Made by a program: the position numbers and the translations under genes. Below, one piece after another: positions 1 through 42,018 of a stretch of DNA of 42,018 nt. The notes under the pieces are model-generated. The model saw nothing but the letters and a program-made list of their open reading frames with translations, was not told the DNA's origin and did no database searches. How positions within the stretch are numbered: position 1 is the first letter of the stretch; each line of letters starts with the position of its first letter. The DNA is taken from positions 1-42,018 of the IMG/VR virus record IMGVR_UViG_3300036857_000306; one strand, 5' to 3'. Source of the DNA: a virus.

Positions 1-127
1 GCCTGCAGCGCCACGACTCCATTGCCGATTGCCCGAAGGGAATCGATTCTGGCTGCGTCCACCACCACGGCATGCCCATCAACCAGGCAGCGAAAGCCGG
101 GTTCAATCGCCGGCGCGAGCCACGGCT
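1..127. repeat. Terminal redundancy, left copy (contig circularisation overlap)
   Basis: The first 127 bases are identical to the last 127 (41892-42018). A methyltransferase gene runs off the left end in frame and is completed across the join, so this is one locus seen twice. The length of 127 equals a common assembler k-mer, so I read it as an assembly overlap of a circular or circularly permuted molecule rather than a biological terminal repeat. Confidence 0.95.
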
Positions 128-1030
128 CGTCGCGGAGGATTCGCTCCCATTCGAGGGAGTCCGGCCCGGGCGCGAAAATTTCATCTCCGCCGCCTCGTCC
201 AGCTGGCCGCGCCGCTGGCCTTCCCGAGCCGAGCCCTTGTGATCGTTCGCTCCCGTCGTTGGCCATCGATTGACCGCAACCGTCAGGTCCGCATAACCGT
301 CCGTCCGCGAGCGCGACGGACCGCCGCAATTGTTCGCGTTGTCCTCGATCGGCGTCGGCCAAAATCTCGCCTGCTGGTCGAGGCCCATTTCCTGCGAGCG
401 TTCGCCGCTCCTCGATCGGAACGAATCCGCTGACGGGGTCTGCCACAGTTCCGCTTGGCGATTCAGAAAAACTTCCTCGTTCCGTTCCCCTCCGCGATTC
501 GAGCGTTCCTCGCTGGTCGGCGTTTGCCACAGCCGAGCCTCGCTCGATAAATCCATCCCCGCGTGGCGCGTCTCCGATATCTCCCGCGCCAGATCGTTCT
601 GCCCTTCGACTCGCGGAGTCGCCCATTGCGACGTTTCCCGATTGAGACAGCGGCCCATCGTCGACGTCACACCGCCCTCGTCCGCAGTCGGCGTCGCCCA
701 CGAGGCCGATTGTTCCCGCAGATTCTGGAAACCGTTGTGGCCGTTGGAATAACTCGCCGTGTTCGCATCCGGCGTCGACCAGGTCCGCGCCTGCTGATTC
801 AGGATCGCGCCGTCCTTGCCCGGATTGCCTTCCGCCGTCCGGCTGCCGTCCTTGCTGTCCGCTCGCGGCGTCGCCCAGCTGCGCGTCGCGCCAGTCAGCG
901 AATCGTTCGCTGATGGATGATTGCCGCAAGATTCCGCGTCCTCGGACCGCGTCGACGGCCAAAATGAAAATGCGCTCGCGGAGATGCGAGGCTCCCACGG
1001 CGGCTGCGGATAGATGACACCACTCCGCAT
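1..1030 (-). CDS. Overlapping W-x-T-P repeat reading frame inside the cytosine methyltransferase gene; continues at 41830-41891
   Basis: Shifted +1 relative to the methyltransferase frame, this strand is open from ATG 1030 (GAGG five bases upstream), across the contig join, to TGA 41830: 363 residues. Between bases 961 and 263 it holds nine evenly spaced units of the form L-x-x-x-A-x-x-W-x-T-P-x-x-x-D/E (seven exact W-x-T-P; the first is WPST, the last WPTT), then a C-terminal LNPAFAAWLMG-MPWWWT segment. Such W-x-T-P units and an LNP..W.MG.P..WT ending are, from memory, found in phage cytosine methyltransferases. A hand count over bases 961-752 gives third-position G/C of about 80 percent here against about 69 percent in the methyltransferase frame. 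Its stop overlaps the next start as ATGA. It is either the true C-terminal half reached by a frameshift, or a dual-coded protein; a shadow is less likely. Confidence 0.55.
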   Translation of the reverse strand, partial: MRSGVIYPQPPWEPRISASAFSFWPSTRSEDAESCGNHPSANDSLTGATRSWATPRADSKDGSRTAEGNPGKDGAILNQQARTWSTPDANTASYSNGHNGFQNLREQSASWATPTADEGGVTSTMGRCLNRETSQWATPRVEGQNDLAREISETRHAGMDLSSEARLWQTPTSEERSNRGGERNEEVFLNRQAELWQTPSADSFRSRSGERSQEMGLDQQARFWPTPIEDNANNCGGPSRSRTDGYADLTVAVNRWPTTGANDHKGSAREGQRRGQLDEAAEMKFSRPGRTPSNGSESSATSRGSRRRLNPAFAAWLMGMPWWWTQPESIPFGQSAMESWRCR

Positions 1031-3277: not shown

Positions 3278-4537
3278 CTATTTGGCCTTTCGCCACGCTA
3301 CCAGCTTGCCGTTTTTCGGCGCGAGCGCCGCGAGCGTCTTGTTGCCTTTCCACGTCGACGCAATGGCCTCGTCGAGCCGCGCCTGCCGCGTCTTACTCCA
3401 AGGATTGTAGTGCTTCTCGGCAACCGCGAGCGTATCGCCGAGCGCATCCGCGACTTCCTGCATGCTCTTTCCGGCCTCCAGCATGGCGACGGCAAACGTA
3501 TCACGAAACCGATGTGCGTGGCCTTGTTGAATTCCCGCGAGCCTGAACATTGCCGAGAGTTCGCCCTGCCAATGTTTCGTAGCCGTTTCGAGTTGACCGT
3601 TGCCGCTCCAGAACCAAAAGAGATCGCTCATCGGCGGACACTCCGCGAGCGCCTTCAAAACTTCCGGCGGCAGCGGCACATCGATGGTCCGGTCGGTCTT
3701 CCGGCAGTGCGCGATGCGGACGCGTCCCTCGCTCACCCACTCCATCTGGCAGCTGACCGCGTCGCTGATTCGCAAGCCGGAGAAAAGCAGGAAAAGCACC
3801 AGAGCGCGGAGCCGGACCGCGCTCACGCCGCCATCCTTCACGTCCGCGTCGAGCGTTTCCAGAATCTTCTTGAGTTCGGCGTCGGTGAACGGCGGCTTTT
3901 GCTTGTGCTTCACCTTCATCGGCCTCACCGTTTTCATCGGATTGGTTTTAATCCAATCGCGGTTGTGGAGGAAACGGCAAAATTGACGAAACCGCTCCAG
4001 CTTCTTCGCCGCCGCTTTCGGATTGTCCATGACCGTGCGGCCATTGGTCGGATGCAAGCGCTTCTCCGTCCAGGATGCGCGAAACGCGGCGATGAACGTG
4101 GCGTCGAGATCGCTCACCAGCGTCACGCGCCGCGCTTCGGCGAACACCGTGAGCTGGCCCGGCTTGTAGCATTCCTCCTTAGCCGGATCGCGCCGGAGGC
4201 CGTGCGGAGCCAAAAGCGTGCGGTGCTTCCGGCGCGTGGATTCGCGGAGCTTCAGGATTTCGGGATCGCGGAAATACTCGTGCAGCGCATGGTCGAGCGT
4301 GACCGGACCGGAGGCCGCTTGCTTGACGGCGACGGCGCTCAGGCCGCTGGTCCGGCGCTCGAACATAATGCGCTCGGCTTCATGCAAATCCCGCGTGTCG
4401 AGGGTCTCGAAGCCGCCGAATGGCCGCAGGTCGAGCGTGAACGCGCAACCGCATTTAAATTGCTTGCGGCGGTTCGGAACACCTTCCTGCGCGAGCGGAC
4501 AATCCTGCACGTGCCGCTTGATGAGGGTTATCGCCAT
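3278..4537 (-). CDS. int: Tyrosine-family site-specific integrase, 419 residues
   Basis: Catalyses attP x attB recombination for integration. Visible in order: an N-terminal CP...CGC zinc-like pair (residues about 13-31), a core-binding domain (about 80-200, with a typical FRQFCRFLHNRDWI stretch), and the catalytic domain with Arg256 (SGLRISDAV), Lys280, H342-x-x-R345 (AHRFRDTFA) and the nucleophile Tyr377 (AEKHYNPW). The usual second His (the GH before the Tyr) is Asp368 here (LGDTLAVAEKHY), a substitution tolerated in the family. It follows the excisionase gene by ten bases (SD GAGGAG), and its end faces attP 310 bp away, the standard integration cassette. Confidence 0.96.
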   Translation of the reverse strand: MAITLIKRHVQDCPLAQEGVPNRRKQFKCGCAFTLDLRPFGGFETLDTRDLHEAERIMFERRTSGLSAVAVKQAASGPVTLDHALHEYFRDPEILKLRESTRRKHRTLLAPHGLRRDPAKEECYKPGQLTVFAEARRVTLVSDLDATFIAAFRASWTEKRLHPTNGRTVMDNPKAAAKKLERFRQFCRFLHNRDWIKTNPMKTVRPMKVKHKQKPPFTDAELKKILETLDADVKDGGVSAVRLRALVLFLLFSGLRISDAVSCQMEWVSEGRVRIAHCRKTDRTIDVPLPPEVLKALAECPPMSDLFWFWSGNGQLETATKHWQGELSAMFRLAGIQQGHAHRFRDTFAVAMLEAGKSMQEVADALGDTLAVAEKHYNPWSKTRQARLDEAIASTWKGNKTLAALAPKNGKLVAWRKAK

Positions 4538-41554: not shown

Positions 41555-41833
41555 TCACCTCCGTGAAGTAACTCGGCGCCGCGAAGCGCCGAAAGAGTCG
41601 CGAAAATTCGCGTATACGTCGTCGAGCGAGATGGAAAAGCCGTTGGTGCGTGCCACGGTTTGAATCTGCAGCGCCAAAGAAGCGCGCGGAGAATTCTCCC
41701 CGCGCAGCCAGTGATAAACGGCGTGCCGCGAGACGCCCACTTCGTCGGCCAGTTTTTCCGCGCCGAAACGCGAAACGAAACGTCCGAATTTGGAATTCCA
41801 GCGGCCATCCTCCGAACGCGCTCCGAACCTCAT
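41555..41833 (-). CDS. Cro/XRE-like HTH regulator, 92 residues
   Basis: ATG 41833 overlaps the end of the methyltransferase-region frame (ATGA); SD GGAGGAG. Residues about 17-48: SKFGRFVSRFGAEKLADEVG then VSRHAVYHWLRGENSPRASL, a clear helix-turn-helix of the YdaS/Cro type, followed by helices (LALQIQTVARTNGFSISLDD). Probably an early regulator, possibly Cro-like; a full-length CI-type repressor was not seen. It may bind the dyads listed here, but nothing shows which. Confidence 0.82.
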   Translation of the reverse strand: MRFGARSEDGRWNSKFGRFVSRFGAEKLADEVGVSRHAVYHWLRGENSPRASLALQIQTVARTNGFSISLDDVYANFRDSFGASRRRVTSRR

Positions 41834-42018
41834 GAGCTCCTCCCGTTTTCAAACTCCGAGACGCCGAGCAAGTACGACAAACGCAACCGCAGCCTGCAGC
41901 GCCACGACTCCATTGCCGATTGCCCGAAGGGAATCGATTCTGGCTGCGTCCACCACCACGGCATGCCCATCAACCAGGCAGCGAAAGCCGGGTTCAATCG
42001 CCGGCGCGAGCCACGGCT
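41830..42018 (-). CDS. C-terminal end of the W-x-T-P repeat frame (joined to 1-1030)
   Basis: Continuation of the frame from base 1. It contains the C-terminal segment with LNPAFAAWLMG, MPWWWT and MESWRCRLRLRL and ends at TGA 41830, which overlaps the HTH gene start (ATGA at 41830-41833). Bases 41892-42018 repeat 1-127. Confidence 0.5.
   Translation of the reverse strand, partial: SRGSRRRLNPAFAAWLMGMPWWWTQPESIPFGQSAMESWRCRLRLRLSYLLGVSEFENGRSS
41849..42018 (-). CDS. C-terminal end of the DNA cytosine methyltransferase (joined to 1-1466)
   Basis: Continuation of the C5 methyltransferase frame across the contig join: DSLRAIGNGVVALQAAVAF and VVLARRLGV, with a motif X-like GNGVVALQ, ending TGA 41849. 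The whole gene is then 1,509 bases. Bases 41892-42018 repeat 1-127. Confidence 0.75.
   Translation of the reverse strand, partial: PWLAPAIEPGFRCLVDGHAVVVDAARIDSLRAIGNGVVALQAAVAFVVLARRLGV
41892..42018. repeat. Terminal redundancy, right copy
   Basis: Exact second copy of bases 1-127; see the left copy. Removing one copy gives a circle of 41,891 bp. Confidence 0.95.

Follow-up and report, generated by a model that had tools for sequence, protein, structure and literature searches.

Two full-length genes seldom overlap over a long distance on the same strand, and gene callers usually exclude such cases. M.EcoHK31I (YGGCCR) is a naturally two-polypeptide C5 methylase, and M.EaeI is said to be similar. 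The gene for the small subunit of M.EcoHK31I reportedly lies inside the large-subunit gene, in another reading frame. The large subunit carries motifs I-VIII and X, whereas the small polypeptide carries motif IX only; the recognition domain (TRD) is predicted to lie in the large subunit (PMC3404938). In M.AquI (CYCGRG), also a two-subunit C5 methylase, the catalytic and recognition parts are on separate polypeptides (PMC3404938).

The DNA analysed here, referred to as the window, is a 42,018-nt stretch of viral DNA (positions 1 to 42,018 of IMG/VR record IMGVR_UViG_3300036857_000306). Its sequence and that of its relatives make it very probable that two overlapping genes on one strand together encode a C5 cytosine methyltransferase of two polypeptides. 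The first, f0, would provide the large domain (motifs I-VIII, a long unconstrained spacer and motif X), while the second, f1, in the +1 frame and with its start 2 nt upstream of that of f0, would provide a target-recognition region of W-x-T-P units together with motif IX. We infer that f1 is translated, that the two chains, each initiated separately on one mRNA, would assemble into one enzyme, and that this enzyme would methylate the phage DNA, most likely as protection against host restriction.

The closest known case is M.EcoHK31I, although f0/f1 is not a proven member of that kind. Like the large subunit of M.EcoHK31I, f0 carries motifs I-VIII and X without IX, and a motif IX-like segment (LNPAFAAWLMGMPWWWT) is found in the predicted second polypeptide, f1, in the +1 frame and under selection. 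Three features are new relative to M.EcoHK31I: constraint between motifs VIII and IX (region B below) lies in the small-subunit frame rather than in the large subunit, where the TRD of M.EcoHK31I was placed; the two starts nearly coincide, 2-4 nt apart in most loci; and the arrangement is broad, being conserved over a large phage and prophage clade. The genes also span the whole locus. The window differs from M.AquI in having motif X on the catalytic subunit and in the complete overlap of its two genes. A small subunit with both IX and X, as in the M.AquI type, was found instead in three relatives (L011, L015 and L159). Likewise, the M.AquI-like actinophage pairs Alma gp83/82, TaylorSipht gp40/41 and ArV1_067a/b have motifs I-VIII in one protein and repeats, IX and X in the other.

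The same f0/f1 pair is present in the P. larvae phage Shelly (gp55/gp56), where f1 is recorded as “g55 internal gene” and matches phrog_1008 (8e-74). Unlike that of the window, the f1 start of Shelly is internal to f0 and has a Shine-Dalgarno (SD)-like sequence of its own. The overlap is not discussed in the P. larvae phage paper that was checked, and a literature search, with subscription papers outside its reach, found no paper describing it. By HMM, phrog_1008 and phrog_27243 are the f1 family; they are labelled only “DNA methyltransferase” and unknown, respectively, and the PHROGs library does not state that their genes overlap those of phrog_363/phrog_29583. Related phages are usually annotated with one half only, mostly f0.

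Two overlapping frames in a circular record

Bases 1-127 of the window are exactly identical to 41892-42018, which makes the record circular; a minus-strand reading therefore runs from base 1 to base 41891. The features of the locus are as follows.

1-127, no strand: direct terminal repeat
1-1466, minus: f0, C5 cytosine methyltransferase catalytic subunit (predicted); GTG start at 1466, TGA stop at 41849 beyond the circular join, 502 aa
41849-41891, minus: C-terminal end of f0, past the join, after motif X
1-1468, minus: f1, predicted overlapping +1-frame protein; TTG start at 1468 (NTGTGG), through the join to TGA at 41830, 509 aa
41830-41891, minus: C-terminal end of f1, past the join; ATGA shared with the next ORF
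906-1448, minus: region A, with the f0 motifs I-VIII; constrained in f0, and over some stretches in f1 as well
107-905, minus: region B, W-x-T-P-type units in f1; f1-constrained
56-106, minus: motif IX-like segment in f1; f1-constrained, window versus five relatives
3-26, minus: motif X, GNGVVALQ, in f0; f0-constrained, window versus five relatives
1478-1482, minus: GGAGG, SD-like, lying upstream of both starts by about 9 nt (f1 TTG) and 11 nt (f0 GTG)

From stop to stop, f0 spans 1469-41849. The f1 frame lies one base ahead and covers all of f0. The original prediction had a second frame of 363 codons from 1030; that frame is open, as claimed, and it is larger, running end to end over f0 for more than 500 codons (1525-41830 and slightly more upstream). 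Other details of that prediction were reproduced: nine W-x-T-P units (seven exact and two degenerate, the first just upstream of region B, near 961), the hand-counted third-position G/C content of bases 961-752 (computed as 0.80 in f1 and 0.68 in f0), and a terminal ATGA, at 41833-41830, that overlaps the next ORF. This small ORF (41555-41833, minus) follows f1 directly and is repressor-like (phrog_35, 1e-7). A tyrosine-type integrase at 3278-4537 (minus; phrog_1, 3e-32) suggests that the phage is temperate. The first f1 start facing f0 is the TTG at 1468, and the GGAGG at 1478-1482 could act as a single SD-like site for both genes. That f1 of the window begins with TTG rather than ATG is a point against the two-chain model.

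The f0 product contains, in one chain, the motifs expected of a C5 methyltransferase (PF00145): I, IV (PCQ), VI (ENV), VIII and X (GNGVVALQAA). The TRD and motif IX expected between VIII and X of the same chain were not found in it. It matches PF00145 (1.5e-25), phrog_29583 over its full length (4e-52), TIGR00675 (2.2e-20, under its curated cut-off) and the solved M.HhaI (2e-9). In an AlphaFold2 model of an f0-f1 fusion, the catalytic domain is confident, with M.HhaI as its best match; the W-x-T-P region of that model has a pLDDT of about 35, from shallow alignments. Modelled by itself, again from shallow alignments, f1 gave no confident fold (pLDDT 53.5, pTM 0.22). It matches phrog_1008 by HMM (4e-15) and has no match in Pfam or NCBIfam; an f1 profile found nothing in the PDB, and the W-x-T-P region has no sequence likeness to any solved structure. 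The names motif IX and TRD are provisional for f1, being drawn from position, fusion order and similarity by eye rather than from a profile match.

Conservation of both open frames

No relatives were found with full-length f0, and relatives were found with an alignment of its catalytic domain. Both frames are full-length, as in the window, in the Acidovorax phages Alfacinha1 and 3 and in IMG/VR relatives. A scan with an f1 alignment yielded 80 viral and 77 bacterial loci, and the +1 frame carries a motif IX-like segment in 165 of 174 loci found through f1. Catalytic domains in this 174-locus set come from Proteobacteria, Firmicutes, Myxococcota, Planctomycetota and others, and GC content ranges from 35 to 71%. 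A second scan used the f0 catalytic domain alone, avoiding a choice based on f1, and gave 80 loci, or 86 with six phage and plasmid loci added; at least 65 of these 86 further loci have this +1 frame as well. Within the limited sequence collections from which loci and pairs were drawn, well over 200 loci thus share the arrangement, among them loci of isolated phages, RefSeq phages and chromosomes. An overlap of about 500 codons would then be conserved over phages and prophages of many phyla.

Whether the frames are kept open was assessed by fixing the protein of one frame, shuffling its synonymous codons and counting stops in the other. With f0 fixed, 88 f1 stops were observed in region A against 315 expected (122 non-redundant loci), and f1 was stop-free over region A in 93 of the 122 loci, with 17 expected. 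With f1 fixed, f0 had 82 stops in region B (VIII to IX) where 418 were expected (119 loci), and was stop-free there in 106 of 119 loci (12.7 expected). The third frame was near expectation in both tests (653 versus 721 for region A; 659 versus 599 for region B). The result did not depend on selection through f1: the 64 of the 86 further loci classed as f1 had 9 f1 stops over the catalytic domain against 168.6 expected, and 60 were stop-free (5 expected), while the control frame in this ascertainment check had 530 stops (464 expected). Even the 19 of the 86 loci missed by the motif pattern had only 10 f1 stops, compared with 61 expected. In the window, with f1 fixed, f0 had no stops over the 270-codon repeat region, where 8.1 were expected (0 of 400 shuffles were stop-free). 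Shuffling the codons of the whole of f0 in the window alone gave only moderate significance (P 0.014), since f1 already shapes the codon set, and the multi-locus test was used instead. Where f0 stops early after motif VIII (e.g., L027, L037, L065, L147 and L159), f0 stops in region B return to expectation, which argues that f0 does not stay open there passively.

It is extremely improbable that f1 is open through base composition or a one-base sequencing error. The window does have high GC content and repetitive sequence, and f1 stays open in 12% of trials when f0 codons are shuffled synonymously within the window's catalytic half only. However, f1 is open in loci with overall GC down to 35%, in RefSeq phages and in chromosomes, the third frame has the expected stops, and substitution patterns (below) reflect amino-acid-level selection on f1. 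The two overlapping frames of the original prediction are therefore real; the concern that homologs might keep only one frame open was examined across relatives, and the overlap stood.

Selection, initiation and frameshifting

Substitutions were counted by f0 codon position in independent close pairs. Differences in region A fall at f0 positions 1/2/3 in proportions of 29/16/55%, and those in region B in proportions of 65/20/15%, equivalent to 20/15/65 at f1 positions; homologous flanking ORFs, used as a control, gave 18/13/69%. Bins covering motif IX follow f1, and the motif X bin follows f0 (14/10/76%). In three bins of region A (A2, A3 and A7) the third-position share drops to 0.47-0.50, which suggests dual constraint where f1 has a conserved segment, GKP..SWRGW..LSG..LxPSTA. 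The comparison of the window with five relatives gave.33/.20/.47 for region A,.51/.26/.23 for region B,.75/.21/.04 for motif IX (counts 18:5:1) and.20/.16/.64 for motif X (counts 11:9:35), again at f0 positions 1, 2 and 3. Thus, constraint on f0 covers motifs I-VIII and X, and that on f1 covers the W-x-T-P region and motif IX, a complementarity that can be read position by position. With constraint changing frame after motif VIII and again at X, information for the enzyme runs f0, f1, f0 along the DNA.

A programmed +1 frameshift after motif VIII, yielding a single f0-f1 chain with f1 never initiated alone, could explain why f1 takes over from f0 as the constrained frame directly after motif VIII, and single-ORF fusions have the same order. 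We consider it improbable. Upstream of the switch such a mechanism needs neither openness of f1 nor an f1 start, yet f1 is mostly stop-free over region A, and among the 223 loci where f1 is open across region A, 187 have an f1 start that lies -2 (NTGTGG) or +4 (NTGAATG) nt from the nearest f0 start. Nor does it need f0 to be open in region B, as it is in nearly all loci, and motif X in f0 would demand a second shift back. The only conserved bases in the consensus of the A/B boundary, ..TgGCc, are accounted for by Leu-Ala in f0 and Trp-Pro in f1; no slippery sequence was seen in this consensus, and f1 has its own starts.

Separate initiation of f1 is favoured over frameshifting by these start offsets and by SD-like sequences at internal f1 starts, found in 20 of 26 loci where f1 starts inside f0. 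At many loci of the +4 class a TGA lies directly 5' of the f1 ATG, making this ATG the first possible f1 start. The actinophage loci L011, L014 and L015 (63-70% GC) encode ENVRG of f0 with AGA/GGA-type codons, which creates GAGAGG before a GTG start of f1; a codon-choice test of this actinophage SD is no more than suggestive, since its hits are probably, for the most part, related phages.

The original prediction had weighed a frameshift fusion near 961-970, a one-base error at 955-975 and two proteins from one DNA. The last is strongly supported, with f1 open over the catalytic half and furnished with its own start. The fusion was rejected, since f1 is open upstream, f0 is open to motif X, and IX is in f1 but X in f0, as was the error, given recurrence across so many loci. 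The boundary near 961 is nonetheless real: selection switches from f0 to f1 around 961-905.

Proposed division of labour between the two products

A further alternative is that f0 is a self-sufficient methylase and f1 a real, overprinted protein of unrelated function. The usual annotation of f0 alone, its full-length match to a phage family and the lack of Pfam and NCBIfam matches for f1 would fit this reading. However, f0 over region B is open, low in hydrophobic residues and without visible protein selection. The fraction of hydrophobic residues between VIII and X is 0.195, compared with 0.349 in region A, and with the missing constraint this makes the region a poor recognition domain. A stop-free yet unselected spacer fits a translated linker to motif X. 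Moreover, the motif IX-like segment is in f1, the f1 family sits between VIII and X in the fusions, and split relatives carry motif X in f1. Independence of the two proteins is therefore unlikely.

The fusions are natural single ORFs in methylase order. A 419-aa ORF of Pelosinus (L174) resembles f0 over residues 5-174 (53% to f0 of a relative), f1 over 205-357 (51% to f1 of a relative) and f0 again over 365-406 (64%); it matches both phrog_363 and phrog_1008, as does Babsiella gp54. In split forms (L011, L015, L159, L072, L163, Alma and TaylorSipht), f0 terminates after motif VIII, and motif X (and IX) is in f1. Fusion order and split forms together indicate that f1 is the part for recognition and motif IX.

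Single-chain, split and nested forms coexist among the relatives, which offers a test case for the origin of overlapping genes. In L013 (prophi91-4), L017 (Babsiella), L086 and L174, repeat units or motif IX are in the catalytic frame rather than +1, apparently through single indels. In L027 (2879-4046), L037 (2855-4424), L140 and L156, f0 has at least one stop between VIII and IX, f1 is continuous, and motif X is conserved downstream in the f0 frame as a separate ORF. The two-chain model leaves this last form unexplained; a third polypeptide or recoding might be involved. In L008, comparison with the close relative L007 shows a frame shift in f0 near 4500, immediately ahead of motif X, from either an assembly error or a recent mutation.

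If the two-polypeptide model is correct, many phage “DNA methyltransferase” annotations would change, because part of the enzyme is missing as annotated, and failed activity from a single ORF could be explained.

The predicted f1 products of the window's clade are about 320-510 aa long, with modular W-x-T-P units. Counted by pattern, unit number varies from 0 to 7. Loci whose catalytic domains have diverged share near-identical units (66-93% over 30 aa), as if cassettes had been swapped. Unit number and unit sharing raise the possibility, which we hold only tentatively, that f1 is a modular, recombining recognition subunit with swappable cassettes and that the pair is multi-specific, the f0 frame there being only an open linker to motif X. 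Methylase specificity would then change by shuffling units in one frame of shared DNA. Similar or near-identical f1 region B units across diverged methylases were seen in many loci, for example L112, L121 and L190; L019 and L022; and the window with L007, L009, L035 and L069.
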